64,000 bases of DNA from Myxococcus guangdongensis (GTDB lineage: Bacteria; Myxococcota; Myxococcia; Myxococcales; Myxococcaceae): assembly GCF_024198255.1 (NCBI RefSeq), contig NZ_JAJVKW010000002.1:186001-250000 (forward strand), given 5' to 3'. The notes under the pieces are model-generated. The model ran no database searches. It worked only from the letters and a program-made list of their open reading frames with translations, and was not told the origin of the DNA. Position numbers and translations under genes: made by a program. Within the stretch, counting starts at the first letter, position 1. Every line of letters starts with the position of its first letter. Below, piece by piece: positions 571 to 39,734 of this stretch.

Positions 571-580
571 TCCACGCCGG

Positions 581-1857: not shown

Positions 1858-1871
1858 AGGAGAGCAAGCGT

Positions 1872-1874
<3 letters not shown>
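1858..1874 (+). promoter_or_regulatory. Ribosome site and TTG start of hflX
   Basis: AGGAGAGC at 1858-1865 lies about seven bases before a TTG at 1872. The frame is open upstream to 1752 but that part has no family similarity and no ribosome site, so this site decides the start. Confidence 0.65.
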
Positions 1875-3524
<1,650 letters not shown>

Positions 3525-3576
3525 CGCGGCGTGCGGGTTGCGAGGTGGGCATGGCTCCCCCTAGAGTCGGGGGGCC

Positions 3577-4017: not shown

Positions 4018-4023
4018 GGTCCC

Positions 4024-8025: not shown

Positions 8026-8057
8026 GGCTGCACCTCCGTGTCACCCACTTGCTCCAG

Positions 8058-8089
8058 ATTTATCAGGTAACACAGTCATCCGGGCTCAA
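8058..8089 (-). promoter_or_regulatory. Candidate promoter of the terminal NRPS gene
   Basis: In the short divergent gap 8026-8120, the minus strand carries TTGAGC at 8089-8084 and an AT-rich GATAAA-type -10 at about 8064-8059, separated by about 19 bases. The predicted transcript would start about 25 bases before the ATG at 8025. The match is weak; the gap must nevertheless hold promoters for both this gene and the PKS gene. Confidence 0.25.
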
Positions 8090-8120
8090 CTCGTGCAGCC
8101 GGCCATGCTCTATTTCAGGG

Positions 8121-17800: not shown

Positions 17801-20800
17801 CGGTGCTCCGGCCAGCCTCGCCCTCCACCACGACAACTGCTCCTCCAACACCTCGCCCTGCAGCCACTCGCGTTGCCACACCGCGTAGTCCGCGTACTGC
17901 ACCGGCAGCTCCGGCAACGTCGCGGCTTCACCGCTCACGTACGCGCCGTAGAGCGCTTCCAGCTCCTTCGTGAGCACGCCCATCGACCAGCCGTCCGCCA
18001 CGATGTGGTGCACCACCAGCACCAACACGTGCTCGCGCTCGCCCAGCTTCAACAACGTCGCTCGCAGCAGCGGTCCCGTGCCCAGGTCGAACGGACGACG
18101 CCCCTCCTCCAGGGCGAGCCGCACCGCCTCCTGCTCACGGCGCACCACGGACACGCCTCCCAGGTCCACCACCGGCAGCGCCACGGGGCCCGAGGCCTGG
18201 ATGGACTGAACCGCGCCCTGCCCTTCCTGTTGGAAGGTCGTCCGCAGGGATTCGTGACGACGAACCAGCGCTTCGAATGCTCGCGCCAGCGCACTGACAT
18301 CGAGCGCCCCCTCGAGTCGCAGCGCGAGGGGGATGTTGTAGAGAGGGCTGTCGGGCTCCAAGCGGTCCAGGAACCACAAACGCTGCTGCGCGAACGACTG
18401 CGGCAAGGCCCCGCTGCGCGGCACAGGCACCAGCGCGGAACGCTCCGCTCCAGGACCGCCGCGAACCAAGGTCTCCAGGCTCCTCGCGAGCGAAGACACC
18501 GTGGGGTTCTCGAACAGCATCCGCACGGGGACGTCTCGCCCGAGCACGTCTCGCAGCCGCGAAGCCACCTGCATCACCAGCAGCGAGTGACCACCCTGCT
18601 CGAAGAAGTGGGCCTCCGCGCTCACGTGCTTCACGCCCAGCAGCGGCGCCCAGACGCCCGCCACCAGCTCCTCGAAGCCCGTCCGAGACGCGATGAACCC
18701 CTCGGGCACGGAATCACGCGCCACACGCTCGAGCCGACGCGCCTGGATGCGCGCCACATCCACCTTCTTCGGGACCTCACGATGTCCCGACAGGGGCAGC
18801 GTCCCCACGCGCGCCTCGGGGTCCGCCACGGCCGACTCCAGCACCTGCTGGTAGTGCGCGGCCATGCGCTCCACGGTGGAGGCATCGAACAGGTCCGTGT
18901 TCAGCTCCCAGAAGCCCGTGAGGTCCTCCGCGTCCTCACGGACGGAGAGCGCGAAGTCGAACTTCGCCATCCCCGGCTCGTACTTCACCTCCGACGCACT
19001 CAGCCCCGGCAACGCGGGCAGTCGCGCAGGCCCGTTCAGGCCGAAGGCCACCTGGACCAATGGAGCCCGGCTCGTGTCACGCGTCGACTGCAGCGCCTCC
19101 ACCAGCTTCTCGAACGGCACTTCCTGGTGACCGAACGCGCCGAGCACCGACTCCTTCACCCGCCCCAACATCTCGCGGAACGTCAGCTCCCCCGCCGCCT
19201 CCGTCCTCACCACCAGCGTGTTCACGAAGAAGCCGATGAGCCCTTCGACCTCCTTCACCGTGCGGCCCGACACCGGAGAGCCCACCACCACGTCCCACTG
19301 TCCGCTGTAGCGCGCCAGCAGCACCTGGAAGCCCGCCAGCAGCGTCATGTACAGCGTCGCGCCCTCCTGCCGGCTCAGGCGCTTCAGCTTCTCGCTCAGC
19401 GCGGCGGGCAGACCCACCGCCACGGTCGCGCCCCGGTAGCGCTGCACCGCGGGCCTCGGGCGGTCCGTCGGCACCTCCAAGACCTCGGGTGCTCCCGTCA
19501 GCCTCGCCCTCCACCACGACAGCTGCTCCTCCAGCACCTCCCCCTTCAACCCTTCGCGCTGCCAGACCGCGTAGTCCGCGTACTGCACCGGCAGTTCGGG
19601 CAGCGCCGCGGCCTCTCTCCTGACGAACGCGCCATAGAGCGACTCCAGCTCCTTCGCGAGCACGCCCATCGACCAGCCGTCCGCCACGATGTGGTGCACC
19701 ACCAGCACCAGCACGTGCTCACGCTCGCTCGACTTCAACAACGTCACTCTCAGCAGCGACCCCGTGCCCAGGTCGAACGGTTCGCGCGCGAGCTTCTCCA
19801 CCTCGTCACGCAGTGCGCCCTGCATCGCGACCACCGCGAGCCGCACCGCCGCCTCGGAGGCGATGCGCTGCACCGGCTGTCCCTCCACCTCCTCGAACGT
19901 CGTCCTCAGCGACTCGTGTCGACGTACGACCTCCGCGAACGCCCGCTCCAACTGCCCCACGTCCAGCAAGCCACTCAGGCCCACGACGAACGGCAGGTTG
20001 TACGAATAGCCCCCCGCGTCGAGCTTCCCCAGGAACCACAGGCGCTGCTGCGCGAACGACAGCGGCATCCCCGCGAGCCTCGGCACGCGTGACGGCCTGG
20101 AGAGGCTCGCGCCGGAACCTCGCGCCGTGAGTCCCTCCAGTCGCTCCGCCAAGGACTCCACCGTGGATGCCTCGAACAACCACCGCACCGGCACGTCGCG
20201 CCCCAGCGCCTCCCGCAGTCGCGACACCACGCGCGTCGCCAGCAACGAGTGCCCACCCAACGCGAAGAAGTCATCCTTCACGCCCACCCGCGCCACGCCG
20301 AGCAGCGGCGTCCAGATGCGCGCGACCAGCGACTCCATCACCGTCCGAGGACTCTGCACCTCCTCGCCCCCCGGCCCCTCCTGGTCCGGCGACGGCAAGG
20401 CCCTGCGGTCCACCTTCCCGTTCGCCGTCAGCGGCAACGCCTGCAGTCGCACGAAGGCCGAGGGCACCATGAACTCGGGCAGCTTCTGCTTCAGCCAGTC
20501 GCGCACCTTCAGAGTCTCAGGCCCTTGCTGCTCGACGTAGTACGCGACCAGCCGCTTGCCCCCGGCTCCGTCCCGCACCACCACGAGCCCCTCCTTCACA
20601 GAGGGATGTGCGAGCAACGCCGCCTCCACCTCGGCCAGCTCGATGCGGTAGCCCCGCACCTTCACCTGACTGTCGCGTCGCCCCAGGAACTCCAGCACCC
20701 CGTCCGGGCGCCACCGCGCCAGGTCACCCGTGCGATAGAGGCGCTCTCCCGGCGCCGCGCTGAAGGGGTTCGGGATGAAGCGGTCCGCCGTCACATCCGG

Positions 20801-23800
20801 CTGGCGCAGGTAACCACGGGCCAGTCCGTCGCCGCCGATGAACAGCTCTCCCGCCACACCCACGGGCACCGGCTCCATCCCCTCGTCCAGGATGTAGACC
20901 TGCGTGTTGCCGATGGGCCGGCCGATGGGCACCGACGTCCCCACGTCCTCCACCCGCGTCATCCGATGCGTCGACGTGAAGAGCGTGCTCTCCGTGGGCC
21001 CGTAGCAGGCCGTCACCGGGATGCGCAGCTCCTCCAACGAGCGCCTCACGTGCGGCGCGGACACCACGTCGCCACCCGTCAGGAGCTGACGCACCGTCTT
21101 CAGCCCCTCCAACCCCAGCTCCACCATCTGGCTGAACAAACCCGCCGTCAGGTGCAGCAACGTCACCGAGTGTCGACGGAGCACCTCGGACAGGAGGTCC
21201 AGGTCGCTGGGCGAGCGCGGCGGGAAGACCACCAGTCTTCCACCAAGACACAGGGGGCCCCAGACCTCCAACGTCGACGCGTCGAAGGAGATGGGCGCGA
21301 TGAGCAGGAAGGTCTCCTCGGGCCCCAGCTTCGCGTAGGGCGCGCCGTACAAGAGCCGCAGCACACCTCGGTGCTCCACCGCCACGCCCTTGGGGCGCCC
21401 GGTGCTCCCGGACGTGAAGTCCACGTACGCCAGATTGCGTCCCGACACCGGCATGCGCGGCGCCGTCGTCGGCTGTCCGTCGAGCCGCTCCTCCTCCAAC
21501 AGCATCAGCTCGGGACGTCCCTCGCGAGGCAGTTGCTCCAGGAGGACCCGGGTGGTGATGAGCAACCGCGGCGCCGAGTCCTCCAGCATCTGCTCCAGTC
21601 GCTTCGCCGGATAGCTGGAGTCGAGCGGCACGTACGCACCGCCGGCCTTGAGGATGGCCAACAGCGACACGATGAGCTCCACCGAGCGGTCCAGACACAC
21701 CGCCACCAGCACATCCACGCCGACACCGCGCGCGCGCAGTGCCCAGGCGAGCTGGTTGGCGCGTGACTCCAGCTCGCGGTAGGTGAGCCGCTCGTCGCCG
21801 AACTCCAGCGCCACCGCGTCGGGGCGCAGCGCCACCTGCTCCTCGAAGAGGTGGTGGACACAGGCCTCGCGCGGGAAGTCGACCGCCGTCTGGTTCCACT
21901 CCACCAACAGCCGCGCGCGGTCCTCCGCGGGCAGCAGGGACAGCGTCGACAACCGGGCCTGGGGCCGGGCGGACAGGTTCGACAACAGCTCCAGGAAGCA
22001 CGCGGCGAGCCGCTGCACCGTGGACGACTCGAAGAGGTCCGCGTTGTAGATGAGCTGGCCCTCGACGCTCGCGCCGGGGGCGTCCACCAGCAGCAACTCC
22101 AGGTCGAACTTGGCGATGGTGCTCGCGAAGTCCCAGGGGCTCGCGGTGACGCCGGGCAACGACAGCAGCGGCGCGGCGTCCTGCAGCGTGAAGAGCACCT
22201 GGAACAGCGGCGAGCGGCTCAGGTCCCGTTCGGGACGCAGGTGCTCCACCAACCGTTCGAAGGGCACGTCCTGGTGCGCGAGCGCCCCGAGCACCGACTC
22301 CTTCGTCTGACGCAGGAACACCTCGAAGGAGCGCGATGAGTCCGGCTGTGCCCGCAGGGCCAGCGTGTTGACGAAGAAGCCCATCAGCCCCTCCGTCTCC
22401 TTCGCCGTGCGGCCTGACACCGGCGTCCCCACCACCACGTCCCACTGTCCGCTGTAGCGCGCCAGCAACACCTGGAAGCCCGCGAGCAGCGTCATGTACA
22501 GCGTCGCGCCTTCTCGCCGCCCCAGCTGACGCAGGGACTCGCTGAGTTCGGTGGACAAGCGCACCGGCACGCTCGCGCCCCGGTAGCCCTGCACCGGCGG
22601 CCTCGGTCGGTCCGTCGGCAACTCCAACACCGGCGGCGCGCCCTTCAGCACCTCGCCCCACCACGCGAGCTGCGCGGACTCCACCTCGCCCTTCAACCAG
22701 TCCTGCTGCCACACCGAATAGTCCGCGTACTGCACCGGCAACTCGGGCAGTGCGGCCGCGACGTACAGCGACTCCAGCTCCCGCGTGAGCACGCCGAGCG
22801 ACCAGCCATCCGCCACCAGGTGGTGCAGCACCACCACCAGCACCTGCTCGTCCCGGCCCGTCCTCAACAGGGTCGCTCGGAGCAGTGGACCTCGCGTCAC
22901 ATCGAAGGGCGCCTGGACCTCGTGCACCACCTGCTCACGCACCGCTGCTTCCATGTCGGCAGCGTTCTCGACGGACGCCACGCGCAGGGACAGCGCCGCG
23001 TCCGGGGCGATGCGCTGCACGGGCTCTCCGCCCACCTCCACGAAGCTCGTGCGCAGCGCCTCGTGCCTGCGCACCACCTGGACGAGGGCCTGCTCCAACG
23101 CACGCGCGTCCACCGCGCCGTGGAGACGGACGACGAAGGGCAGGTTGTACGAGTGTCCTCCCGCATCCAGCTGTGCGAGGAACCACAGCCGTCGCTGCGC
23201 GAATGACAGCGGCGGGTCCACCGGCCGTCCCGCGCGCGTCAGGGAGGGCAGCCGCGTACGCCCGACCGCCGTGCCCAGTCGCTCGGCCAGCGCCTCCACC
23301 GTGGGCGCCTCGAACAACAATCGCACCGGGACGTCCTGCCCCAGCTCATCCCGGAGACGAGACACCACGCGCGTCGCCAGCAGCGAGTGCCCCCCCAGCG
23401 CGAAGAAGTCGTCTCGCACGCCGACGCGCGGCACTCCCAACACCTCGCGCCACACGTTCGCGAGCGTCTGCTCCATCCCGGTGCGCGGCGCCTCGTAGCG
23501 CGTGCCCGGCTCCTCTCGCGAGGACTCCAGTTGGGGCAGTGCCCGGCGGTTCACCTTCCCGCTCGGCGTCAGCGGCAGGGCCTCCAGCGGCACCAGCACC
23601 GAGGGCACCATGTACTCAGGCAGCCGCTTCGCGAGGCGACGCTTCAGCGCCTCGGCATCCCAGGCGCCCGTCGCGACGACGTAGCCCACCAACTGCTTCC
23701 CACCCCGCTCCGAGACGCGCGCCACCACCGCCGCGTCCTCCACGCCCTCCACTTCCTTCAGGGCGATTTCGACTTCGCCGGGCTCCACGCGGAAGCCACG

Positions 23801-26467: not shown

Positions 26468-26583
26468 GTCGACACCTCAACTCAAGGAAGCAGATCTCGA
26501 AGACACGAAGCCCCGCGACCCGGACAGGTCGCTGCACTTCGCGAAGGCGTGAGGCGTGTGCCCGGATGAAGCCGGGCGGGACT

Positions 26584-26850
26584 TCAAGCCGCGGGGAAGG
26601 TGCGGCCCTGCTCGCGGAGCTGCTCCTCGCAGACCGCGGTGACGTGCTCCAGCGTATCGAACAGGTCCACCATGGAGAGCTGGACGCCCAGTTCCTCCTC
26701 GATGCGGTTGGCCAGCATCGTCGCCATCAGCGAGTTGCCGCCCACCTCCAGGAAGTGGTCCTGCGGCCTCACCACCTCCGCCCCGAGCAGCTCGCGCCAG
26801 TACGCGGCGAGCTGGCGCTGAAGGGGCGTGGTGCTCGTGTCAGTGCTCAC
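26584..26850 (-). CDS. Discrete carrier protein (PCP/ACP)
   Basis: An 88-residue phosphopantetheine-binding protein with the attachment motif EVGGNSLMA near residue 40 and the usual four-helix pattern. It starts at a GTG preceded by GAGGA. It sits between the AMP ligase (33 bases away) and the giant NRPS (116 bases away) in one operon. The simplest role is to receive an acyl or aminoacyl group from the ligase and present it to the first condensation domain, which has no upstream carrier of its own. It could also hold an amino acid during tailoring. Confidence 0.85.
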   Translation of the reverse strand: MSTDTSTTPLQRQLAAYWRELLGAEVVRPQDHFLEVGGNSLMATMLANRIEEELGVQLSMVDLFDTLEHVTAVCEEQLREQGRTFPAA

Positions 26851-26883
26851 GTGTGCTCCTCATGGTGACGTGGCGAGAGGGTC

Positions 26884-28572
26884 TCAGCCCACCTTGGCGG
26901 TGGGGCCCTGGAGCCGCTCGCGCAGCAGGTACTTTCGAATCTTTCCCGACGGCGTCTTGGGCATCTCCTCCACCACCTCCAGCCGGTCCGGCCAGTACTG
27001 GTTGGACATGCCCAGGCCCTTCAAGTGCGCGCGCAGCTCGTCCAGCGTCGGCGCCTCGTCGCGCGCCACCACCACCGCGCACACCCGCTCCCCGCCGATG
27101 CGGTCGTCGGAGTGCCCGATGACGGCCACCTCCTTCACCTTCGGATGCGAGTACAGCGCCGACTCCACCTCCACCACCGGCACCTTCTGGCCGTAGCGGA
27201 AGATGACGTCCTTGAGCCGCCCGACGATGCGGATGCCCCCACGCCCGTCGTCCCGCGCGAGGTCCCCCGTGTCGAACCAACCCTCCGCGTCCACGCTCGC
27301 GCGGTAGATGTCCTCCCGCTTGAAGTAGCCCAGGCACTGGCTCGCGCCCCGGACGAGCAGCCTTCCGGTGCCCTCCGGGTAGGGCGAGCCGTCCTCGGCC
27401 AGCGCGGGGACGATTCTCACCTCCATCCACTCCACCGGTCGCCCGTCGCTGTGGGACGGCCAGTCCGGCGGGTCGTCCCGTCGCGTAATCGTCACCGCGC
27501 CGTTCTCCGTCATCCCCCACAGCGTGTGCAGTGGCACGCCAAAACTCTCGCGGACCGCGGCGATGAGGTGCGGCGGCACGGGGATGGAGCCGGTGGACAG
27601 CCGACGCAACGAAGATGTTTCACCGCCGCGCTTCTTCTTCGCCGCGATGACGTTCATCACATACGTGGGAATCCCATACATGAACGTGACGCCGTGCTCC
27701 TGGATGCAGCGCAGCGTGAGCTCCGGGTCCCCCACGTCCATGTAGACAGCCGTCGCCCCCAGGTTCACCGCCATCAAGTACAGGTAAGTAAATCCGCTGG
27801 AGGCGGTGAGCAGCGACGGCAGGCACACCACGTCGTCCTCGCCCAGGGCCATGACGTCCGCGATGGCGCGGGTGATGCCGAAGTTGGTGTTGTGCGAGTG
27901 GACGACGCCCTTGGGCTCGCCCGTGGTGCCGGAGGTGTAGAGGACGTTGCAGATGTCGTCGGCGCGCGCGGACCTGACGTCCAGCGTCGCCTGGTCGACC
28001 TCGTCCTCCCAGCGCCGCTCGACGAAGTACGCCTCGAAGGCCAGCTCGCCCTCCTGCGTGGCACCGTCCGCGCCCGCTCCGATGAAGACGCGGTGCTTCA
28101 GCGCCGGCAGCGACGACGCGGCCTCGCGCAGCATGTCCCGGTGCGAGTGCCCGCTCCAGCTCAGCGGTCCGATGTAGACGGAGGATTCCGTCCTGCCGAG
28201 GATGAACTCCACCTCGCGGCGTCGGTAGTCCGGGGGAATCGGCGCGACGACGGCGCCGATGCGCGCGCACGCCAGCGCCAGCGCGGTGAACTGCCACCAG
28301 TTGGGCAGCTGCACCGCCACCAGCTCGCCCCGGGCCACGCCCAGCGACACGAGCGCGCCCGCGAAGCGCTCCGCGTACCGTCCCAGCTGCGCGTAGCTGA
28401 TGCGCGTGACGTCCTTGGCGAAGTAGCGCGCCGCGACGATGGCCGGCTTGTCCGGGTGCTTCTGGATGGCTCGACGCAGGTCGTCCAGCACCGTCTCGTC
28501 ACGCCACCAGCCCCTGCTCCGGTACAGCGCCGACTGCTCCCGCGTGGGGCCGCTTCCGAACCGTGCGTCCAT
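26884..28572 (-). CDS. Acyl-CoA/acyl-carrier AMP ligase
   Basis: A 562-residue adenylate-forming enzyme of the acyl-CoA synthetase class, resembling cyclohexanecarboxylate/benzoate-type CoA ligases more than NRPS A domains. It has the P-loop TSGTTGEPKG, the WGMTENG motif, the hinge GRLKDVIFRYG and the catalytic lysine in PKTPSGKIRK near the C-terminus. The ATG at 28572 follows GGAGG at a proper distance; another in-frame ATG lies at 28581. First gene of the minus-strand operon, before the discrete carrier protein and giant NRPS, so it probably activates the starter acid and loads the carrier. A less likely alternative is that it supplies the A-less modules in trans. Its substrate cannot be read from the sequence. 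Confidence 0.82.
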   Translation of the reverse strand: MDARFGSGPTREQSALYRSRGWWRDETVLDDLRRAIQKHPDKPAIVAARYFAKDVTRISYAQLGRYAERFAGALVSLGVARGELVAVQLPNWWQFTALALACARIGAVVAPIPPDYRRREVEFILGRTESSVYIGPLSWSGHSHRDMLREAASSLPALKHRVFIGAGADGATQEGELAFEAYFVERRWEDEVDQATLDVRSARADDICNVLYTSGTTGEPKGVVHSHNTNFGITRAIADVMALGEDDVVCLPSLLTASSGFTYLYLMAVNLGATAVYMDVGDPELTLRCIQEHGVTFMYGIPTYVMNVIAAKKKRGGETSSLRRLSTGSIPVPPHLIAAVRESFGVPLHTLWGMTENGAVTITRRDDPPDWPSHSDGRPVEWMEVRIVPALAEDGSPYPEGTGRLLVRGASQCLGYFKREDIYRASVDAEGWFDTGDLARDDGRGGIRIVGRLKDVIFRYGQKVPVVEVESALYSHPKVKEVAVIGHSDDRIGGERVCAVVVARDEAPTLDELRAHLKGLGMSNQYWPDRLEVVEEMPKTPSGKIRKYLLRERLQGPTAKVG

Positions 28573-28739
28573 CGTCCACATCCTCCATGGACCGCGTGAC
28601 TTTCCGGACCGCGCGAACCATACCGATTCGCGTGTAAAACCAGCAAGGCTGCGAAAGCTCACATGTCTGCACCCCAAGGACCCTCACTCACATTGACGGG
28701 GCCGCTCTCGGTTTCCTACTTTGGAATGGATCGCCAGGA
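28573..28739. promoter_or_regulatory. Divergent promoter region of the NRPS and transketolase operons
   Basis: This gap separates the ligase-PCP-NRPS operon from the plus-strand operon. On the plus strand TTGACG at 28693-28698 and TACTTT at 28717-28722 are 18 bases apart and would place the transcript start near 28729. On the minus strand TTGCTG and TATGGT, 18 bases apart in the stretch 28605-28650, are a weaker candidate. No regulator gene lies in the cluster, so control by a distant factor is likely. Confidence 0.35.
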
Positions 28740-29603
28740 ATGTGCGCCCCACCGGATGATGACAACGGGCCCGCTTCCACCGGCATGACACCCATGGTCC
28801 AGGTACCCCTCGAGGAGCGCGCCCGTCGCATCCGCCGGACCATTCTCCGGCTCGCCGCCACGCCCGTGGGCTGCCACCTGGGGGGCTCGCTCTCCATGGT
28901 GGAGCTGCTCGTGGTGCTGCTCGGGCGGGTGATGAACGTGCGGCCCCAGGAGCCCCGCTGGGAGGAGCGCGACTCGCTCATCCTCTCCAAGGGCCACGCC
29001 GCCGCCGGGCTCTACGCCGCCCTGGCCGAGTTCGGCTTCATCGATACTGAAGAACTGGTGCAACGCTACAACGCGGAGGGCAGTCCCTATACCGGACACG
29101 TGAGCGCGGCGGTGCCGGGCGTGGAGTTCCCCACGGGGAGCCTGGGGCACGGACTGGGACTGGGAGTGGGGATGGCGCTGGGGCATCGGCTGCGGCAGCG
29201 CGCCAACCGCGTGTTCGTCGTCTGTGGAGACGGGGAGATGGGCGAGGGCTCGAACTGGGAGGCGCTGCAAATCGCGGCGCAGCACGAGCTGTCCGGACTC
29301 ACCGTGTTGGTGGACCGCAACGGCGGACAGAACGACGGGCCCACGGAGAGCATCCTCTCCCAGGGCGCGCTGGTGCAGCGGCTGTCCGCGTTCGGTCTGG
29401 GCACCGTGGAGGTGGACGGGCACGACATGGAGGCGCTGGCGCGGGTGTTGGAGGCGCCCGCCGAGGGGCCTCGCGCGATTGTGGCGAACACGAAGAAGGG
29501 CGCGGGGGTGCCGATGCTGCGCGGCAAGGGGCCGCACTACGCGACGTTCAACCCGGAGCAGCTCAAGCGGGCGCTCGCGTCGCTGGGTGAGGTGACGCCG
29601 TGA
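28740..29603 (+). CDS. Transketolase N-terminal half (ThDP-binding)
   Basis: A 287-residue protein matching the first half of split transketolases. Key features are the GHAAAGLYAAL segment, the thiamine-diphosphate motif GDGEMGEGS followed by NW, and the DRNGGQND segment. With the next gene it would form a heterodimeric transketolase that moves a two-carbon unit to an aldehyde acceptor. It heads an eight-gene operon whose other members are LysXYZK-type enzymes, so the acceptor is probably a carrier-bound glutamate semialdehyde rather than a sugar phosphate (inference). Translation may start at the ATG at 28740 or the one at 28785; neither has a good ribosome site, and homology begins after both. 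Confidence 0.87.
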   Translation: MCAPPDDDNGPASTGMTPMVQVPLEERARRIRRTILRLAATPVGCHLGGSLSMVELLVVLLGRVMNVRPQEPRWEERDSLILSKGHAAAGLYAALAEFGFIDTEELVQRYNAEGSPYTGHVSAAVPGVEFPTGSLGHGLGLGVGMALGHRLRQRANRVFVVCGDGEMGEGSNWEALQIAAQHELSGLTVLVDRNGGQNDGPTESILSQGALVQRLSAFGLGTVEVDGHDMEALARVLEAPAEGPRAIVANTKKGAGVPMLRGKGPHYATFNPEQLKRALASLGEVTP

Positions 29604-30634
29604 CGAGCTCCACCTCCAGCGGCGCGGACCTGCTGACGGCGCCCTCGGACTGGCTCGCGGAGCAGCCGGGCCTGTCGAACCGGCTCGTGTTCCGGCACGC
29701 GCTGGCCAGGCTCGCGGACCAGGATGAGCGCGTGGTGCTGCTGGAGGCGGACCTGGCGGGGGGTGGAGACCCGTACGCCGCGCGCCACCCGGAGCGTTTC
29801 CTCAACCTGGGCATCTGCGAGGCGGCGATGCTGGACATCGCCAGCGGCATGGCGGCCACCGGCCACGTCGTCTTCGCCCACACGTTCGCGCCCTTCGGGG
29901 CGATGCGCGCGTGCGAGCAGGTGCGGTTGGGCCTGGCGTATGCGCGCGCCAACGTGAAGCTGGTGTGCGACTACGGCGGCCTGTCCGGCGCGTTCTTCGG
30001 CCCCACGCACCACGCCATCGAGGACCTGGCCATCCTGCGCGCCATGCCGAACATGACGGTGGTGTCGCCCGCGGACGGGCTGGAGACGATTCAGGCGACG
30101 CGGGCGGTGCTGGAGATGGAGGGCCCGGTGTACCTGCGGCTGGGCCGCAACCGCGTCACGCGGCTGGACGTGGCCCGGCCCGCCTTCGCCCTGGGGCGCG
30201 CCATGTGCCTGCGCGAGGGCAGCGACGTGGGCATCATCGCGCACGGAGAAGTGGGCGTGAGCATGGCGCTGGACGTGGCGGCGCGGCTGGAGACCCAGGG
30301 CATCTCCGCGCGCGTGGTGAACCTGCACACGCTCAAGCCCTTCGACGAGGAGGCGCTCCTGGAGACGGCCGAGCGCACCCGGCTGCTCGTCACCGTGGAG
30401 GAGCACTCCATCCTCGGCGGCCTGGGCGGCGCGGTGTGCGAGAGCGTGGCGAGTCACGGGTTGGGCCGGCGCGTGGTGCGCGCGGGCATCCAGGACCGCT
30501 ACGACTCGGCGGCCGGCACCCACGAGTCGCTGCTGCAGCGCCACGGCCTGGAGGCGGGCGCGCTGGTGGAGACGATTCTCGGCGCCCTGCCCCGCCCCCG
30601 GCTGGCGGCGCTGGCACCCTCCAGGAGGGGATGA
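29600..30634 (+). CDS. Transketolase C-terminal half
   Basis: A 344-residue protein with the pyrimidine-binding and C-terminal domains of transketolase. The stretch NLGICEAAMLDIASGMA holds the Glu that activates thiamine diphosphate, and the GxFFGPTHHAIEDLA region contributes active-site His residues. The GTG start overlaps the stop of the N-terminal half (GTGA), which indicates coupled translation and a one-to-one complex. Split transketolases of this type occur both in sugar metabolism and in antibiotic clusters, including those making DADH-type amino acids. The location here argues for the second use. Confidence 0.87.
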   Translation: MTSSTSSGADLLTAPSDWLAEQPGLSNRLVFRHALARLADQDERVVLLEADLAGGGDPYAARHPERFLNLGICEAAMLDIASGMAATGHVVFAHTFAPFGAMRACEQVRLGLAYARANVKLVCDYGGLSGAFFGPTHHAIEDLAILRAMPNMTVVSPADGLETIQATRAVLEMEGPVYLRLGRNRVTRLDVARPAFALGRAMCLREGSDVGIIAHGEVGVSMALDVAARLETQGISARVVNLHTLKPFDEEALLETAERTRLLVTVEEHSILGGLGGAVCESVASHGLGRRVVRAGIQDRYDSAAGTHESLLQRHGLEAGALVETILGALPRPRLAALAPSRRG

Positions 30635-31482
30635 TGCAAGGCCACGAGGTCCACCTGGTCTACACCCGCCTGCGCACCGAGGAGCGGATGCTCGCGGACG
30701 CGCTGCGCGCGCGGGGCTTCGGGGTGCGGACACACGCGGACTCGCAGCTGGTGCTCCCGCTGAGCCGCGAGCGCTGGCAGGACGGCGGGCCCGTGCTGAT
30801 GCGCAGCATGTCCTTCACCCGGGCGCGCTACCTGGCCTCCATCCTGGAGGTGAAGGGCGCCCGGGTGCTCAACACCGCGCACTGCATCTCGACGTGCGGG
30901 GACAAGGCGCTCACCACGCTCGCGCTCGCCAAGGCGGAGGTGCCCATCCCCTGGGCCTTCGTCGGCTTCGAGGAGGAGGCCTGCGTCGCGCAGATGCAGG
31001 AGCGCGGCTTCCCCGTGGTGACCAAGCCCGTGCTCGGCTCGTGGGGGCGGATGGTGGCGCGCGTGGATGGCGTCCACGCGGCGGAGGGCATGATGTCCAT
31101 GCGCTTCGAGATGGGCGGCGCGCAGGACCACGTGGCGCTGGTGCAGCAGTACATCGACAAGCCGGGGTACGACTTGCGCGTGTACGTCATCGGCAAGGCG
31201 GTGGGCGGCATGCGCCGACGCTCCGAGCACTGGGTGACGAACACCGCCCGGGGCGCGGTGCCGGAGCGCTACGAGGTGCCGGAGTCCCACGCCCGGCTCG
31301 CCGAGCAGGCGGCCCGCGCCGTGGGCGGGGAGATGGTGGCGGTGGACCTGCTGGAGACCCGGGCAGGCGAGGTGATGGTGAACGAAATCAACCACTGCGT
31401 GGAGTTCGCGCGGAGCATCGAGTTCACCGGCATCCCCCTGCCGGAGCTGATGGCGGACTACGTGCGGGAGACGTTGCGATGA
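30631..31482 (+). CDS. LysX/ArgX-type ATP-grasp ligase
   Basis: A 283-residue ATP-grasp enzyme of the RimK/LysX family. The family joins the alpha-amine of glutamate or 2-aminoadipate to the C-terminal gamma-carboxyl of the carrier protein LysW, masking the amine. Visible features are the pre-ATP-grasp domain (residues 1-90), KPVLGSWGRMVARV, the DLRVYVIG strand, and the end signature NEINHCVEFARSIEFTG, which closely matches LysX proteins rather than RimK. The ATG overlaps the previous stop (ATGA) with AGGAGGGG just before. No LysW gene was found nearby, so its partner is missing from the window. Confidence 0.85.
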   Translation: MMQGHEVHLVYTRLRTEERMLADALRARGFGVRTHADSQLVLPLSRERWQDGGPVLMRSMSFTRARYLASILEVKGARVLNTAHCISTCGDKALTTLALAKAEVPIPWAFVGFEEEACVAQMQERGFPVVTKPVLGSWGRMVARVDGVHAAEGMMSMRFEMGGAQDHVALVQQYIDKPGYDLRVYVIGKAVGGMRRRSEHWVTNTARGAVPERYEVPESHARLAEQAARAVGGEMVAVDLLETRAGEVMVNEINHCVEFARSIEFTGIPLPELMADYVRETLR

Positions 31483-32519
31483 CACGCGTCGCGGTGCTGG
31501 GGGCCGGGGGCTACGCGGGCGGCGAGGTGCTGCGGTTGTTGCTCGCCCACCCGGCGGTGGAGGTGGCCCAGGCCACGTCCGAGCAGCACGCCGGCAAGCG
31601 GCTCGACTTCCCCCACCCGCACCTGCGCGGCGCGAGCACGCTGCGCTTCGCGCCACACGACGCGCTGGAGCCGTGCGACGTGCTCGTCTCCTGCATGCCC
31701 TCCGGTGAGCTCATCCGCCGCTGGGCGCAGGTGAGCCCGCTCGCCGCGCGCATCATCGACCTGAGCGCGGACTTCCGGCTCGGGCCCGTCGAACATGCGC
31801 GCTGGTATCCGCGCGCGCCGCGTTCCGCGGAGCTGCCCGAGTTCGTCTACGGCCTGCCGGAGTGGGCGGGCGCGCGCTTGAAGGACGCGCGACTGGTGGC
31901 GGTGCCCGGGTGCATGGCCCACGCGGCGCTGCTCGGGTTGTTGCCCCTGGTGCGCGCGGGGCTGGTGCGCCCTGAGGTCGTGGTGGACGCGAAGACGGGC
32001 TCGTCCGGTGGCGGCGCGACGCCGGACCGCTCCTCGCATCACCCCGAGCGGGCCTCGGCCCTGCGCTGCTATCGGCCCACGGGCCATCGCCACACGGGAG
32101 AAATCGAGGCCGCGACGGAGCGCTTCACCGGCACGCGCGCCACCGTGCACTTCAGCGCGACGGCGGTGCCCAGCGTCCGGGGCATCCTGGCCACGGTGCA
32201 CGCCTTCGCCGCGCGGCCGCTCGAGGACGCCAACGAGCCGCTGCGCGCGCTCGCCTCGACGTACCGTGAGCATCCGTTCGTGAACGTGCTGCGCGCCAAC
32301 GCGAGCGCGTCACCGTTCCCCGAGCCGGGCCCGCTGTCGGGCACGAACCACTGTGACTTGTCGGTGGACGTGGACGCCGAGCGCGGGCGCATCGTGGTGA
32401 ACGCGGCGCTGGACAACCTGGTGAAGGGCGCGGCGGGCACGGCCGTACATGCGCTGAACCTGATGCTGGGCAGACCTGAAACGGAGGGCCTCGGCTTCCG
32501 CGGCCTCCACCCCCTCTGA
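31479..32519 (+). CDS. LysY/ArgC-type semialdehyde dehydrogenase
   Basis: A 346-residue NADPH-dependent reductase converting an acyl phosphate to the semialdehyde. It has the Rossmann start VLGAGGYAGGE, the catalytic cysteine in VPGCMA near residue 145, the SHHPERA and YRPTGHRHTGE motifs, and the end LGFRGLHP, which is characteristic of LysY (LysW-bound substrates) rather than plain ArgC. It is read by an ATGA overlap with the LysX-type gene. The expected substrate is carrier-bound glutamyl gamma-phosphate from the LysZ-type kinase encoded later in the operon. Confidence 0.88.
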   Translation: MTRVAVLGAGGYAGGEVLRLLLAHPAVEVAQATSEQHAGKRLDFPHPHLRGASTLRFAPHDALEPCDVLVSCMPSGELIRRWAQVSPLAARIIDLSADFRLGPVEHARWYPRAPRSAELPEFVYGLPEWAGARLKDARLVAVPGCMAHAALLGLLPLVRAGLVRPEVVVDAKTGSSGGGATPDRSSHHPERASALRCYRPTGHRHTGEIEAATERFTGTRATVHFSATAVPSVRGILATVHAFAARPLEDANEPLRALASTYREHPFVNVLRANASASPFPEPGPLSGTNHCDLSVDVDAERGRIVVNAALDNLVKGAAGTAVHALNLMLGRPETEGLGFRGLHPL

Positions 32520-32564
32520 CGTGAAAGACTCCCCCATGCGCCACCTCCCCCTCGGTGTCCGCCC

Positions 32565-33563
32565 ATGAGCACGCTGACCGTCCTCTACATCACCGGCTGG
32601 TGCCGCAGCGGCAGCACCATCATCGGCAACGTGCTCAACGAGGTGGAGGGCTGCTTCCACACCGGCGAGCTGAGCTTCCTGTGGAAGAACGCCTACGGGA
32701 ACGGCTCCAACACGATGTGCGGCTGCGGCACGCCGCTGGTGCAGTGCGCCCTCTGGGCCAAGGTGCTGGAGCAGGGCGTGGCGCCGGGTGAGTCCCCCCA
32801 GGGCCACGCCGCGCGGGTGGTGCGCCGACAGCTGGACACGGTGCGCACGCGGCACACCTGGCGCGTGCTGCGTCAGCGGATGCCCTCGCCTGAGTTGTAC
32901 GAGCACGCGGAGCTGCTCGCGCGGACGTACCGCACCATCGCGGACGCGACTGGCAGCCACATCATCGTGGACAGCGGGAAGTTCCCCTCCGAGGCGGCGC
33001 TGCTTCCGCACGTGGACGGAATCACGCCGTACTACCTGCACCTGGTGCGAGACCCTCGCGCGGTGGCGCACTCGTGGACGAAGACGAAGCAGTACGTCGT
33101 CCCGATGTCCGCCGCGCGCAGCACCGCGTACTGGCTGGGCTTCAACGTGGCCTCGGAGCTGGTCACCCGGCGTCACCCGGAGCGCTCGCTGTTCCTGCGC
33201 TACGAGGACTTCATCGCGTCGCCGCAGGCCACCCTCGATTCGCTGCTGGAGCTCATCCAGGTGGACCGCTCGGTGAATCCGGTGAAGGGGCGCACGGTGG
33301 TGCTGGGCCGCAACCACACCGTCACCGGCAACCCGGACCGGTTCCTCAGTGGCTCGACGCTGCTGCGGCCCGGCGACGATGCGTGGCGCAAGGAGCTGCC
33401 GGCGAAGGTGAAGACGTTGGTGTCCGCGCTCGCGTGGCCGCTGACGGGGCGCTACCAGTACCGGGGACCGCCGGCCCCCGTGGACGTCGGCTCTGGAGCC
33501 GAGCCCGCCAAGAACACGTCGGACACTGGGAGGGGGAGCCTTGGAACTGGGACTCAGTCATAA
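32565..33563 (+). CDS. PAPS-dependent sulfotransferase
   Basis: A 332-residue cytosolic sulfotransferase. The PAPS 5'-phosphosulfate loop is CRSGSTIIGN at residues 13-22, and the 3'-phosphate motif is LVRDPRAVAHS near 163-173. A Cys-rich insert, CGCGTPLVQC, follows the P-loop. It is embedded between the LysY-type and SDR genes and its end overlaps the SDR start by 23 bases, so it is an integral member of the operon. Two roles are possible: sulfating a hydroxyl on the growing amino acid so an amine can displace it to form a ring, as reported for aziridine formation in azinomycin/ficellomycin-type pathways (recalled, not checked), or sulfating the final peptide. Confidence 0.86.
   Translation: MSTLTVLYITGWCRSGSTIIGNVLNEVEGCFHTGELSFLWKNAYGNGSNTMCGCGTPLVQCALWAKVLEQGVAPGESPQGHAARVVRRQLDTVRTRHTWRVLRQRMPSPELYEHAELLARTYRTIADATGSHIIVDSGKFPSEAALLPHVDGITPYYLHLVRDPRAVAHSWTKTKQYVVPMSAARSTAYWLGFNVASELVTRRHPERSLFLRYEDFIASPQATLDSLLELIQVDRSVNPVKGRTVVLGRNHTVTGNPDRFLSGSTLLRPGDDAWRKELPAKVKTLVSALAWPLTGRYQYRGPPAPVDVGSGAEPAKNTSDTGRGSLGTGTQS
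33528..33543 (+). promoter_or_regulatory. Ribosome site and TTG start of the SDR gene
   Basis: GGGAGGGGG at 33528-33536 precedes a TTG at 33541 inside the end of the sulfotransferase gene. The Rossmann fold begins eight residues later, so this is the natural start. Confidence 0.6.
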
Positions 33564-34323
33564 GGTCGCGCTCATCGCCGGTGGCTCCAGTGGACTGGGG
33601 CTGGCGGTGGCCGAGGAGCTGGTGAAGGAGGGCGCGCATGTCGCCATCGGCGCGCGGGACGCCGAGCGGCTGGCGCGAGCCGAGGCGCACCTGCGCTCGC
33701 TGTCGCGCGGCGGCAAGGTGCTCGCCACGCGCGTGGACCTGAAGGAGCACGGCGCCGCGAAGGCGTGGGTGGAGGACGTGGCCAGCCGGCTGGGCGGTCC
33801 CCACATCGTGGTGACGAACAGCGCGGGGCCTCCGCCGGGGCCGGCGACGAAGTTCGACATCACCGCGTACCAGGAGGCCGTCGACACGGTGATGCTGCCG
33901 GCCATCAACCTGGCCCTGGCCTCGCTGCCGTACATGAAGGCCGCGAAGTGGGGACGGCTCTTGCTCATCACGTCGGAGACGGTGGTGCGGCCGGTGGCGC
34001 GCTTCGCCCTGTCCGCGACGGCGCGGCTGGGCATCGTGGGCTTCGCTTCCGCGCTGGTGCAGGAGCTGGGGGACTGCGGCGTCACCGTCAACGTGCTCGC
34101 GCCGGGCTATACGCGCACGCCGCCCGTGGAGCGCACGGCGGGGACCAACACCTCGGGCGATGTGGAGGCGGGGCTTCGGGCCATGGCCGCGCACATTCCG
34201 CTGCGCCGGGTGGGCGAGCCGGAGGAGTTCGCCGCGGCGGCCGCGTTCCTCGCCAGCGAGCGAGCGTCGTTCATCACGGGCACGGTGCAGCTCATCGACG
34301 GCGGCGCGAGCGTCATCGGATGA
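33541..34323 (+). CDS. SDR-family protein lacking the YxxxK catalytic pair
   Basis: A 260-residue short-chain dehydrogenase/reductase fold. The cofactor loop GGSSGLGL (about residues 14-21) and an NSAGPPPG motif are intact, as is the LLITSET strand with Ser. Where classical members have YSASK, this protein reads LSATA, so both catalytic Tyr and Lys are gone. A known SDR subgroup has LSNxxR at this place together with NAGGPPPG, and this protein belongs to it; its chemistry is not settled. It starts at a TTG and its stop overlaps the next ATG. It could reduce the C6 ketone left by transketolase, catalyse an isomerisation, or act without redox chemistry. Confidence 0.78.
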   Translation: MELGLSHKVALIAGGSSGLGLAVAEELVKEGAHVAIGARDAERLARAEAHLRSLSRGGKVLATRVDLKEHGAAKAWVEDVASRLGGPHIVVTNSAGPPPGPATKFDITAYQEAVDTVMLPAINLALASLPYMKAAKWGRLLLITSETVVRPVARFALSATARLGIVGFASALVQELGDCGVTVNVLAPGYTRTPPVERTAGTNTSGDVEAGLRAMAAHIPLRRVGEPEEFAAAAAFLASERASFITGTVQLIDGGASVIG

Positions 34324-35177
34324 GCACCGTGTCCCAGCCCGCGCCGCTGGTGGTGAAGATTGGCGGCGCCGCGGGCGTGGACCTGGAGAACGTCTGCGCC
34401 GACGTGGCGGAGCTGCGTCAGCGTGGCGAGCGCGTCATCGTGGTGAATGGTGGTTCGGAGGCCGGTGACTCGCTGCTGGCCTCGTTGGGCATGGAGCGCA
34501 CGGAGGCGCTGACGGCCTCCGGCAACGTGGTGCGGCTGACGAACGAGGCCACGCTGCGCGTGCTGACGATGGCGTGGGTGGGGGACGTCAACAAGCGCGC
34601 GGTGCTCGCGCTGCTGTCGCGCAGTGTCCCCGCGATGGGGATGTGCGGCGCGGATGGGCGGGTGCTGGTGGCGCGGCGCAGGCCGCCCTTGAAGCTCCAG
34701 GACGGCACTCGCACGCGCATCGACCGTACGCACCTGGCTGGCGAGATTGTCGAGGTGAACACGCGGCTGCTCGGCGTACTGCTCGACGCGGGCCAGACGC
34801 CGGTCGTGTGTCCTCCGGCGGTGACGGAGGATGGGACGCTGGTGAACGTGGACGCGGACCAGGTGGCCGCCGCCATCGCCTCCGCGCTGGGGGCTCGCGC
34901 GCTGGTGATGCTGTCCAATGTGGCGGGGCTGCTCGAGGACCCAGCGGACCCCACGTCGCTCATCCGTGAAAGTGCGGATGTCGAGCGGGTCATGGGCTTC
35001 GCGCGGGGGCGCATGCGCTACAAGCTGGAGGCCGCGCGGCGTGCGCTCGCGGGAGGCGTGCTGTCCGCGCACGTCACGGCCTCGGCGGCGCCTCGCCCCG
35101 TGCTGTCCGCGCTGGCGGGCGAGGCGGGAACGAAGCTCACTTCTTCGGGTGTGAAGGTGGCTGATGCGGGTGCGTGA
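34320..35177 (+). CDS. LysZ/ArgB-type amino-acid kinase
   Basis: A 285-residue kinase of the N-acetylglutamate kinase family that phosphorylates the gamma-carboxyl of an amine-masked glutamate. The start VVKIGGAAG, the glycine turn VVNGGSEAG and the NVDADQVAAAIASAL segment are present. Sequence pattern and context point to LysZ, which acts on LysW-linked substrates, rather than arginine-pathway ArgB. ATGA overlap with the SDR gene and a 14-base overlap with the next gene show tight coupling. It should act between the LysX-type ligase and LysY-type reductase. Confidence 0.85.
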   Translation: MSTVSQPAPLVVKIGGAAGVDLENVCADVAELRQRGERVIVVNGGSEAGDSLLASLGMERTEALTASGNVVRLTNEATLRVLTMAWVGDVNKRAVLALLSRSVPAMGMCGADGRVLVARRRPPLKLQDGTRTRIDRTHLAGEIVEVNTRLLGVLLDAGQTPVVCPPAVTEDGTLVNVDADQVAAAIASALGARALVMLSNVAGLLEDPADPTSLIRESADVERVMGFARGRMRYKLEAARRALAGGVLSAHVTASAAPRPVLSALAGEAGTKLTSSGVKVADAGA

Positions 35178-36237
35178 GGCGAGCTCGGAGCTGTTGCGGT
35201 GGATGCTGGAGCACTACAGCCCCAGCCACCAGGAGCGCGACTTCTCCCGCGCGCTCGCGGACCGCCTGGAGCGGCGCGGCTGGCGCGCCCATGTCGACGA
35301 GATGGGCAACACCGTGGCCAGCCTCGGTGACGGCGACACCTGCGTCGCGCTGCTGGGCCACATCGACACCGTGCCCGGCGACATCCCCGTGCGCCTCGAA
35401 GGTACACGCCTGTTCGGCCGTGGCGCGGTGGACGCCAAGGGCGCGCTGGCCGCGTTCATCGAAGCCGCGGAGCTGCTCGACGACACCGAGCGCGCCGGCA
35501 AGCGCTTCCTCCTCCTCGGCTGTGTGGAGGAAGAGGTCGCCATCACCCGAGGCGCGCTCCACGCTCGCGAGCACCACCGTCCGGACTTCGTCGTCAACGG
35601 CGAGCCCAGCGGCGCTCACGCCATCACCCTCGGCTACAAGGGCCTCGTCCGGCTGGAGCTCGAGTACCGCGCCGCGCGCAAGCACACCGCCAGCCGCAAC
35701 TATCGCGCCCCCGCCGAGCACCTCGTCGACGCCTGGAACGCCCTGCGCCGCCGCTGCGACGAGCGCAACGCGGGCTGCACCCTCTTCGAGCAGGACCTGC
35801 CCTCGCTCCTGTCCTTCCACACGGGCACCGACCACGACACCGAGTGGGCCACCGCGAACATCAACATCCGCACCGGCCCCACCAGCGACGTGGACGCACT
35901 GCTCGCGTGCCTCACCCGCGTGCCCGACATCTCGGTGAAGACGGTGTCCCGCAAGGGCGCCGTGTCCGCCGAGGGCAATGACCCGCTCACCCGCGCCTTC
36001 AAGCAGTCCATCCGCGAGCGCGGCGCGCGCCCCACCCTTCGCGTGAAGACGGGCACCTCCGACTGGAACACCGTCGCGGACACCTGGGCCGTGCCCACCG
36101 TCGCCTACGGCCCGGGTGACTCGGCGCTGGACCACACGCCCGACGAGCACATCGAACTGGGCGAGTACGAAGAAGGCGTCGCCGTGCTGGCCCGCGTGCT
36201 CGCGCTCCTGCCGAACAAGGCCAGCACCCCGGGCTGA
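35164..36237 (+). CDS. LysK/ArgE-type carrier-releasing peptidase (M20 family)
   Basis: A 357-residue zinc-dependent M20 peptidase. [10 protein letters not shown] holds the first metal His and catalytic Asp, [14 protein letters not shown] the bridging Asp, and EEEVA the general-base and metal-binding Glu residues. It ends with the [18 protein letters not shown] pattern of LysK. In LysW pathways this enzyme cuts the isopeptide bond to release the finished amino acid from the carrier, which would be the last step before NRPS use. It is the last gene of the operon and lies four bases from the convergent MFS gene. Confidence 0.87.
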
Positions 36238-36241
36238 ACCG

Positions 36242-37480
36242 TCAGGTGCTCGCGACGTCCGCCGTGCGAGGGCGCTGCCAACGCAGCCCCACCATCGACA
36301 GGAAGAACAGCGCCGCCGCCGTCGCCGTGACTCCGCGCACGCCCACCCGGTCCGCGAGCGCGCCCTGCGCCCAGACGCCCACCGAGTAGCCCACGTTGAT
36401 GAGCAGCATCGCGAGGCTGCTCACCCGGCCCTGCAGCTCGCGCGGCGTGCGCTCCTGGTTGCGCGTGCTCAGCCCCGTCATCACCACCAGATACACCGCG
36501 CCCAGGAAGAACATCGTCCCCATCGCCACGGGCAGCGTGGGCGACAGCCAGTACGCCATCGTCACCGGCCCCATCAACATCATGGACAGGTCCACCACCC
36601 GGTCCTTGCCCCAACGCACCGCGAAGCCGCCCACCAGCCCCGACGCGACGAGCGCTCCCACGCCCTGCACCGCGATGAGCACCGACGCGGCGGACGCATC
36701 CGCGCCGAACACCTGGAGCGCGAACACCGGCACCAACGCGATGAAGGGCGAGATGAACAACGCGAGCAGGAACAACGCCACCATCGCCAGGCGGATGCCC
36801 GAGTCACCCCGCGCCAGCCGCGCGCCCTCCAGGATGTCGCCCCACAGCCCTCGGGAGGACGCGGGCAGCGAAGCCTTGGGCTCCGCGCGCACCTGCGCCA
36901 CCGCGAACAACACCGCGAAGAACGACAGCGTGTTCGCCACCATCACCCAGGCCACGTTGCCCGCCGCGAGCAACCCCGCCGCCAGCACCGGCCCCACGAT
37001 GCGCCCCAGGTTGAACTGCGCCGACATCAGCGTCATCGCGCTGTGCAGGTCCTCCTTCGCCACCAGCCCCGCCACCAGCGCCGTGTACGCCGGCCCCGAC
37101 AGCACGTGCACGCAGCCGTTGAGGAGGGAGATTGCCGCCACCGCCTGCACGGTGAGGTTCCCCGTGAAGGCCAGCGTCGCCAGCACCGCCGCGAGCAGCG
37201 CCTGGGACGCGGCGCACACCGCGACGTACTTGCGCCGGTCGAACCGGTCCGCCAGCGCGCCGCCCAAGGGCGACAGGATGAGCGAGGGCAGGTACGTCAG
37301 CGCCGCCACCCCGCCCGTCCACTCCGCGCGCCCCGTCACCTTCGTGACGAAGACGCCCAGCGCGAGCACCTCCATCCACGTGCCCACGTTGGAGACGAGC
37401 GCCCCCGACCACACCGCGAGGAACTCCCGGTGACGGAAGGCACGGAAGGACGGCAGGGACGCCAGGCTCGAGATGGACAC
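36242..37480 (-). CDS. MFS transporter (EntS-like)
   Basis: A 412-residue major facilitator with about twelve hydrophobic helices and the loop 2-3 motif GALADRFDRRKYVA. The overall pattern resembles the EntS/MFS-3 group, several of which export siderophores and peptides. I take the GTG at 37480, just before the first conserved helix; the frame is open to 37537. It is tail-to-tail with the LysK-type gene, so it is not in that operon, but its place at the cluster edge fits an exporter or self-protection pump. It may instead be an ordinary chromosomal transporter. Confidence 0.8.
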   Translation of the reverse strand: MSISSLASLPSFRAFRHREFLAVWSGALVSNVGTWMEVLALGVFVTKVTGRAEWTGGVAALTYLPSLILSPLGGALADRFDRRKYVAVCAASQALLAAVLATLAFTGNLTVQAVAAISLLNGCVHVLSGPAYTALVAGLVAKEDLHSAMTLMSAQFNLGRIVGPVLAAGLLAAGNVAWVMVANTLSFFAVLFAVAQVRAEPKASLPASSRGLWGDILEGARLARGDSGIRLAMVALFLLALFISPFIALVPVFALQVFGADASAASVLIAVQGVGALVASGLVGGFAVRWGKDRVVDLSMMLMGPVTMAYWLSPTLPVAMGTMFFLGAVYLVVMTGLSTRNQERTPRELQGRVSSLAMLLINVGYSVGVWAQGALADRVGVRGVTATAAALFFLSMVGLRWQRPRTADVAST

Positions 37481-37550
37481 GCGAGCCCGGTTTCTAACAG
37501 CACCCCGGCGCGCGCCGGAACAGCGCGCGGGGCCCACATGCGGACACGCC

Positions 37551-38552: not shown

Positions 38553-38588
38553 GGAAGACCTCGTTCGAGGGGGTGGAGGGCACCGGCG

Positions 38589-39548: not shown

Positions 39549-39734
39549 GGAGACGGCCGCAAGCTTAGTCCACGGCGCGGGAGGGACACGAGCCGGGTGC
39601 GGGACGGAGCGCGACCCTGGGTATGCCCCGTTGGCTGGTGGGCAGGGGGCGGTGGGAAACGTGTCCTCGGCGGCGCCGCACCGGTCTACCATCCGCGGCG
39701 CGCCGGACGGTGGGCGACCGAGGAGAGCTACGGG

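Follow-up and report, generated by a model that had tools for sequence, protein, structure and literature searches.

The window analysed here is a stretch of 64,000 nucleotides from Myxococcus guangdongensis. It contains an operon of eight plus-strand genes at window positions 28740-36237, several of whose products belong to the enzyme families of LysW (amino-group carrier protein, AmCP) pathways. The operon is real, and its coordinates and gene families are those that an earlier note on this DNA had given. Pfam and NCBIfam models recover a transketolase split into an N-terminal half (28740..29603; PF00456 Transketolase_N, E 2e-29) and a C-terminal half (29600..30634; PF02779 Transket_pyr, 2e-35; PF02780 Transketolase_C, 2.6e-27), a LysX-type ATP-grasp ligase (30634, or 30631, to 31482; TIGR02144 LysX_arch, 1e-73), a LysY/ArgC-type semialdehyde dehydrogenase (31479..32519; TIGR01850, 1.4e-95), a sulfotransferase (32565..33563; PF13469 Sulfotransfer_3, 2.7e-10), a short-chain dehydrogenase/reductase (SDR; 33541..34323, Pfam), a LysZ-type amino-acid kinase (34320..35177; NF010659 [LysW]-aminoadipate kinase, 2.6e-67), and a LysK-type M20 hydrolase (35164..36237; NF003367 [LysW]-lysine hydrolase, 6.5e-107).

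The LysX, LysZ, LysY, and LysK homologues thus occur together, with LysY and LysZ over their equivalog cut-offs and LysX (247.9 bits against 275.6) and LysK (357.9 bits against 363) slightly under theirs. The closest solved structures to the LysX-type protein are 3vpd (1.1e-56) and 1uc8 (“lysine biosynthesis enzyme”). Overlapping start and stop codons, which the note had seen at most junctions, are present at six of the seven; the exception is the LysY-sulfotransferase junction, a gap of 45 nt (32519..32565, plus strand).

We surveyed 145 genomes of the order, searching for LysX at E 1e-40, and found it in 32, where LysX, both transketolase halves, LysY, and an acyl ligase stand side by side. 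All eight operon genes occur in the same order in 27 of the 32 genomes, and in the other five the contig ends within the operon. Because the neighbours are kept so widely and the full order in so many genomes, the arrangement is not due to chance. The eight enzymes are under purifying selection, with ratios of nonsynonymous to synonymous polymorphism (pN/pS) of 0.16–0.39 in two genome pairs of the window's clade.

The homology of the core enzymes to those of LysW-dependent lysine biosynthesis could suggest a primary lysine or arginine pathway, but LysX was not found in 113 of the 145 genomes at the survey threshold, the genome encodes a separate argC over cut-off (contig C1) and a lysA (contig C8), and two relatives show an empty site where the cluster would lie. 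In the LysX tree, moreover, the myxobacterial sequences form a long branch of their own, outside the supported Chloroflexota and Phycisphaerales clades. We therefore consider a primary role very improbable, and the assignment to secondary metabolism made in the earlier note stands.

The remote LysW-capsid pair

A LysW-type operon is defined by its carrier, and in this respect the earlier description is incomplete, since the carrier lies outside the operon. A whole-genome search with the LysW model found no LysW in the window; the single LysW of the genome is on contig C19 (178905-179063; TIGR01206, 58.1 bits against a cut-off of 53.2), with the tail EEDWGE. It lies immediately 3′ of a nonribosomal peptide synthetase (NRPS) gene with a thioesterase and immediately 5′ of a gene for a 287-residue capsid-like protein. 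The LysW C-terminus reads EAPEVEEDWGE in all 32 genomes.

A profile built from 23 of the 31 capsid-like sequences matches HK97 gp5 (1ohg, E 1.3e-16), 9lbm (1.4e-17), and other major capsid proteins, while single sequences gave nothing under E 0.08 in PHROGs (four sequences) and nothing significant in Pfam (one sequence). We regard the protein as HK97-capsid-like on this sequence evidence and as a candidate Family 3 “natural product encapsulin”, the family being matched by description.

LysW is found in the same 32 genomes as LysX (31 over the curated cut-off). All but one of these genomes, 31 in total, also carry the capsid-like gene; it is missing in G121, whose LysX contig is 5.7 kb long and ends in LysY. 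LysW lies between the transketolase and LysX genes in 24 genomes, and the capsid-like gene 3′ of LysY in 23. The resulting order, reading away from the divergent ligase, is transketolase N half, transketolase C half, LysW, LysX, LysY, capsid-like gene, sulfotransferase, SDR, LysZ, and LysK, seen in 24 of the 32 genomes (five of these cut by contig ends). The 45-nt gap of the window is the place of the capsid-like gene in these unsplit relatives, where 23 of 24 carry it and the contig of the 24th stops earlier. The window's clade comprises the eight genomes in which the operon lacks both genes, and the two lie together elsewhere. Since three of the split genomes are one-contig assemblies, the split is not due to broken assembly; the distance between the two loci in these is 4.7–5.6 Mb in coordinates.

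The remote neighbourhood is alike in all eight genomes: an NRPS, LysW, the capsid-like gene, and then a convergent methyltransferase gene. An ornithine-cyclodeaminase-type gene lies 5′ of the NRPS, absent in G110 and truncated by a contig end in G102, where just a piece of it is seen on a separate contig, and an MFS (major facilitator superfamily)-like gene separates the NRPS from LysW in three of the eight. Where complete, the remote NRPS has three modules and a thioesterase; in the window's genome, it is split across contigs C17 and C19. In G110 (L178/L179), it is down to one module (adenylation-domain code DALWLGGTF) and a thioesterase, with LysW and the capsid-like gene intact, a reduction that could also reflect assembly collapse of repeats. 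The enolase gene bordering the remote locus is immediately preceded, at L176 198-4768, by genes of the SbcC/Walker-B and JetD types (Wadjet-like).

A cluster-less relative, G113, is without both unlinked blocks, the window cluster and the remote block of cyclodeaminase, NRPS, LysW, and capsid-like genes; its matching flanks are 89–97% identical to G101. At its remote empty site (L250), ∼14 kb are absent and 66 bp lie between the flanks. LysW and a close LysX come as single copies in each genome and are present or absent together, which most simply places them in one pathway. This joint absence adds one further event at most, either as a loss or as the older state.

The window operon might instead be a relic after the loss of LysW, with the remote pair serving the second NRPS alone. 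Such a history would agree with the absence of LysW and the capsid-like gene from the operon in eight of eight clade genomes. Against it, the eight enzymes are intact and constrained, as given above, both loci are jointly missing in G113, and the genome's next LysX relative is just 28% identical, so that with a single LysW and a single close LysX either would be useless without the other. We judge a relic to be quite improbable. In the same two genome pairs, LysW and the capsid-like gene have pN/pS values of 0.15–0.22, and the persistence of the pair in G110 favours service to the window operon.

The moved capsid-like gene and the operon enzymes have different ancestries. The capsid-like tree (31 genomes) joins the window's clade to an Archangium-type clade (support 100/98), and the approximately unbiased (AU) test rejects the arrangement with the sister clade (p 0.003). 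In contrast, a concatenated tree of the eight enzymes (27 of the 32 genomes, quick search) joins the window's clade to the sister clade, and the AU test rejects the Archangium-type grouping (p 1.7e-7). Mean identities are for the most part in line with these trees: those of the window's clade to the Archangium type and the sister clade are 76% versus 70% for the capsid-like protein, 75% versus 80% for LysX, and nearly even, 74% versus 75%, for the transketolase C half. LysW is too short for a tree, so that the ancestry tree covers the capsid-like protein; mean LysW identities are 64% to the Archangium type, 58% to the sister clade, and 67% to the Corallococcus type.

In the sister clade (G108, G109, G104, and G095), the same cyclodeaminase-NRPS-methyltransferase locus is present and the pair is absent from it in four of four genomes, the NRPS-methyltransferase distance being 15 bp in G108, 5 bp in G104, and ∼1.3 kb in G109 and G095. 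Either the window's clade therefore gained the pair by insertion, or the sister clade lost it. Because the shell gene is of Archangium-type ancestry, the remote NRPS was also considered as a relic of a complete second AmCP cluster; this idea was set aside because the sister clade has the same locus without the pair. More tentatively, LysW and the shell may form an exchangeable unit, the resident copy having perhaps been replaced by a unit of other ancestry at the distant NRPS, with one operon and one unit serving two assembly lines. If true, the exchangeable unit would be a compartment of viral origin, loaded with an amino-group carrier protein, and the C7 amino acid would be assembled inside it or on its surface.

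A G(T/S)GT motif at the C-terminus of the sulfotransferase was tried as an encapsulin targeting peptide and rejected. Of the 30 sulfotransferases compared, 21 carry the motif, and in 20 of these the gene runs 23 nt into the SDR gene; the nine without it are all Corallococcus-type (six with a gap of 208–1668 nt to the SDR, three on contigs ending before it). Because it tracks the sulfotransferase-SDR overlap, the simplest explanation is that the motif arises from the overlapping frame. In the window, the GTGT is encoded at 33541-33563, where the SDR start overlaps. G099 has the motif despite a computed gap of 103 nt, probably an alignment-start artefact, and six Corallococcus-type genomes (L175, L199-L203) carry an extra 0.2–1.7 kb between the sulfotransferase and the SDR.

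The surrounding NRPS/PKS cluster

The whole cluster spans window positions 4018..36239, with limits taken from the empty site in G113, where blastn places the window flanks 38-4018 and 36239-40269 about 36 bp apart. In G096, blastn of the flanks shows the missing stretch to be 4017-37550, including a minus-strand MFS transporter gene at the cluster edge (36242..37537; PF05977, 7.9e-50). This gene is retained in the cluster-less G113 and absent in G096, and is probably a neighbour rather than a cluster member. The left flank (581-3524), kept at the empty sites, encodes an HflX-type GTPase and a kinase-PUA protein whose sequence suggests glutamate 5-kinase (ProB).

Within these limits, an NRPS module with condensation (C), adenylation (A), peptidyl carrier protein (PCP), and thioesterase (TE) domains (4024..8025, minus strand; Pfam) has the proline-like A-domain code DVQYVAQVV, and a polyketide synthase (PKS) module of KS-AT-ACP-TE architecture (Pfam) follows on the plus strand at about 8064..11849, its start codon not being fixed. 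A larger NRPS of 4873 residues (11846..26467, minus strand; Pfam) has six C, three A, and six PCP domains; three inner modules are C-PCP pairs without an A domain, and its A-domain codes are DVQFVAQVV, DALHLGCLF, and DGAILAGVC. The number of A-less modules varies in the lineage, with G099 showing the same pattern and G101 and G109 having fewer C domains. Next to the operon, on the minus strand, are a free-standing carrier protein (26584..26850; PF00550 PP-binding, 1.3e-14) and an AMP-dependent acyl ligase (26884..28677; PF00501, 2.5e-75; the start may lie downstream), the latter divergent from the operon and present in 32 of 32 loci. The NRPS genes of the window thus lie on the strand opposite to the operon.

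All A-domain codes were read by a motif script rather than from an alignment with a reference domain. Codes of the proline-like form DVQ[FY]VAQVV occur in both the window and the remote NRPSs, and the consulted part of PMC9113097 gives DVQFVAQVVK and DVQYVAHVVK as proline codes.

Flanks long enough to judge are available for 27 loci, the window included, and 26 of these have an NRPS linked to the operon, while the five others stop at contig edges; for operons that contain LysW, the count is 18 of 19 genomes with enough flank. The adjacency to an NRPS reported in the earlier note is therefore supported, with the qualification that the operon without an NRPS, which the note had named as a refuting observation, occurs in one of the 27 loci (G070).

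A proposed C7 route with carrier and shell in trans

On balance, we consider it likely that the window cluster is a split Family 3 encapsulin/AmCP NRPS cluster with a chloromyxamide-like C7 route that receives its carrier and shell in trans. LysW chemistry comprises carrier loading, semialdehyde formation, and release. In the proposed route, LysX would link the amino group of glutamate to the C-terminal Glu of the trans-made LysW, and LysZ and LysY would convert the side chain to a semialdehyde. Transfer of a two-carbon ketol unit by the transketolase would then leave LysW carrying a C7 amino acid oxygenated at C5, C6, and C7. The SDR and the sulfotransferase would process this C7 intermediate, with sulfate as a leaving group and not as the final decoration, and LysK would free the amine, which could close on C6 to yield a 6-substituted 5-oxy-pipecolate. 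If C6 bears no amine, closure of the alpha-amine on it would be the natural end, leaving a pipecolate substituted at C5 and C7, the pattern of the chloromyxamide building block; the C7 amino acid probably closes in this way. Proline-like A domains of the adjacent NRPS, the remote NRPS, or both would load the pipecolate. The capsid-like shell may hold the reactive LysW-bound intermediates, going with the carrier and not with the enzymes. The seven-carbon amino acid for the adjacent NRPS that the earlier note had proposed is thus retained with modification, since LysW is remote and the route is not simply of the Streptomyces type.

The role of sulfate bears on the middle of this route. The closest solved structures to the sulfotransferase are weak matches, 4gox (PKS sulfotransferase, 7.6e-5) and 4gbm (CurM, 1.2e-4), both from pathways in which sulfate departs as a leaving group. 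No sulfate-activation genes were seen in the window cluster. In clade A, by Pfam, G044 has an adenosine phosphosulfate (APS) kinase, a CysN-like GTPase, and a PAPS_reduct-domain protein reading as CysD, and in G111 an APS kinase and a CysN-like protein were identified by eye; genes for supplying PAPS (phosphoadenosine phosphosulfate) in these two clusters suggest that sulfate activation matters in them. At L194 6900-11802 (G044), these sulfate genes, a WelO5-like oxygenase, and a Zn-dehydrogenase lie near the NRPS of the LysW operon; the H-x-D seen in the oxygenase points to a hydroxylase rather than a halogenase.

Alternatively, the sulfate could stay in the product, the SDR making a hydroxyl that the sulfotransferase decorates. 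The two genes adjoin and mostly overlap, but the distant sulfotransferase relatives 4gox and 4gbm come from leaving-group pathways. This scheme has been proposed for Family 3 clusters (PMC8346489, in part). However, the consulted part of that paper describes chloromyxamide as chlorinated and containing methoxypipecolate and does not name a sulfate. We find a retained sulfate unlikely. In azinomycin biosynthesis, a split transketolase adds two carbons, and sulfation is followed by displacement of the sulfate by a neighbouring amine (PMC9570651, in part).

A second alternative is the straight 2,6-diamino-5,7-dihydroxyheptanoic acid (DADH) pathway of the vazabitide, azinomycin, and ficellomycin type, in which the C7 ketone is transaminated and leads to an azabicycle. 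Three Streptomyces plasmid clusters, which we presume to make DADH, served as comparators. The core enzymes and the split transketolase are shared (the plasmid clusters have LysW, LysX, ArgC, a kinase, and a transketolase), and a single clade of myxobacterial and Streptomyces LysX was not rejected (AU 0.54, long branches). However, a DegT aminotransferase is annotated in all three plasmid LysW clusters and GNAT and BtrH-N proteins in two of them, and a Pfam scan covering 13 window-cluster genes found neither an aminotransferase nor GNAT and BtrH-N proteins, the rest of the genome not having been searched; an enzyme of the first kind encoded outside the cluster could still fill the role. Conversely, a sulfotransferase is not annotated in the three Streptomyces stretches, and the window cluster has one together with an SDR. 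The analogy drawn in the earlier note is therefore not upheld, and we regard a straight DADH pathway as rather improbable.

Several points weigh against the favoured reading of a split cluster with a pipecolate product. The SDR has Ser and Arg at the usual catalytic Tyr and Lys positions, a substitution kept in 27 of 27 homologues seen and aligned with the same pattern in its best solved relatives, 2z1n and 1o5i; without the canonical pair, a plain reduction is unsure. The proline-like A domains may load proline itself, and G110, which keeps the pair without proline-like modules, indicates that the remote NRPS is not fed in every case. The window cluster itself contains no methyltransferase, and the remote methyltransferase gene, present in 27 of 145 genomes including the LysX-less G113 and G096, may be a bystander. 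The G070 operon has no NRPS within ∼25 kb upstream, just the ligase and a carrier domain being left. The co-occurrence count of 32 is partly weakened by shared ancestry. An AlphaFold model of the capsid-like protein, made from three sequences, had a mean confidence score (pLDDT) of 37 and was discarded, and the chemistry, the shell assembly, and the product are inferred. The likeness to chloromyxamide, moreover, rests on its published description and not on sequence.

Relation to known systems

The Thermus-type LysW lysine pathway combines LysX, LysZ, LysY, and LysK with a LysW bearing an EDWGE tail, and the window's genome shares the four homologues and the tail. It differs from that pathway in being sporadic and cluster-borne, in the long branch of its LysX, and in the additional transketolase, sulfotransferase, and SDR. 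With the Streptomyces vazabitide, azinomycin, and ficellomycin clusters it shares the glutamate-semialdehyde route and the split transketolase, and sulfation before ring closure is described for the azinomycin class (PMC9570651, in part). Unlike those clusters, the window has an SDR and its family a capsid-like gene, and the aminotransferase, GNAT, and BtrH-N were not found in the window cluster.

The closest comparison is with the Family 3 encapsulins, of which 132 are reported in natural product clusters, mainly from Streptomyces and Myxococcus, commonly with sulfotransferases, SDRs, PKSs, NRPSs, and LysW-like carriers (AmCP). The one studied product, chloromyxamide from Myxococcus sp. MCy10608, contains 6-chloromethyl-5-methoxypipecolic acid; the role of the shell in that cluster is given as unknown, with encapsulated enzymes suggested as cargo (all from the consulted part of PMC8346489). 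The earlier statement that no myxobacterial example had been described is accordingly superseded. Counted from its name, the pipecolate has seven backbone carbons, and its pattern of carbons and heteroatoms fits glutamate plus a two-carbon unit. Like the window's system with its candidate encapsulin, the chloromyxamide cluster is myxobacterial and associated with a Family 3 encapsulin, whereas the window cluster itself is without encapsulin and LysW, both being in trans.

In the literature searched, most subscription journals lying outside its coverage, we found no account of LysW and an encapsulin being encoded in trans. The published Family 3 survey took 20 open reading frames (ORFs) either side of the capsid gene (PMC8346489, in part), and in the window's clade such a view would show just the remote NRPS and LysW and miss the enzyme operon. 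More generally, cluster-based genome mining misses half the pathway when carrier and shell lie megabases off, and the system offers a way to find more building blocks of the pipecolate type from sequence. That the carrier and shell genes moved together while the eight enzymes stayed points to the carrier, rather than any single enzyme, as the partner of the shell, and the split amounts to a natural separation experiment that could make the role of Family 3 shells testable. The HK97-like shell gene, sulfotransferase, SDR, NRPS, and LysW-like AmCP that occur together in Family 3 clusters are here divided over two loci: the clusters and chloromyxamide make this a known kind of system, and the split arrangement is the part for which the literature searched gave no description.

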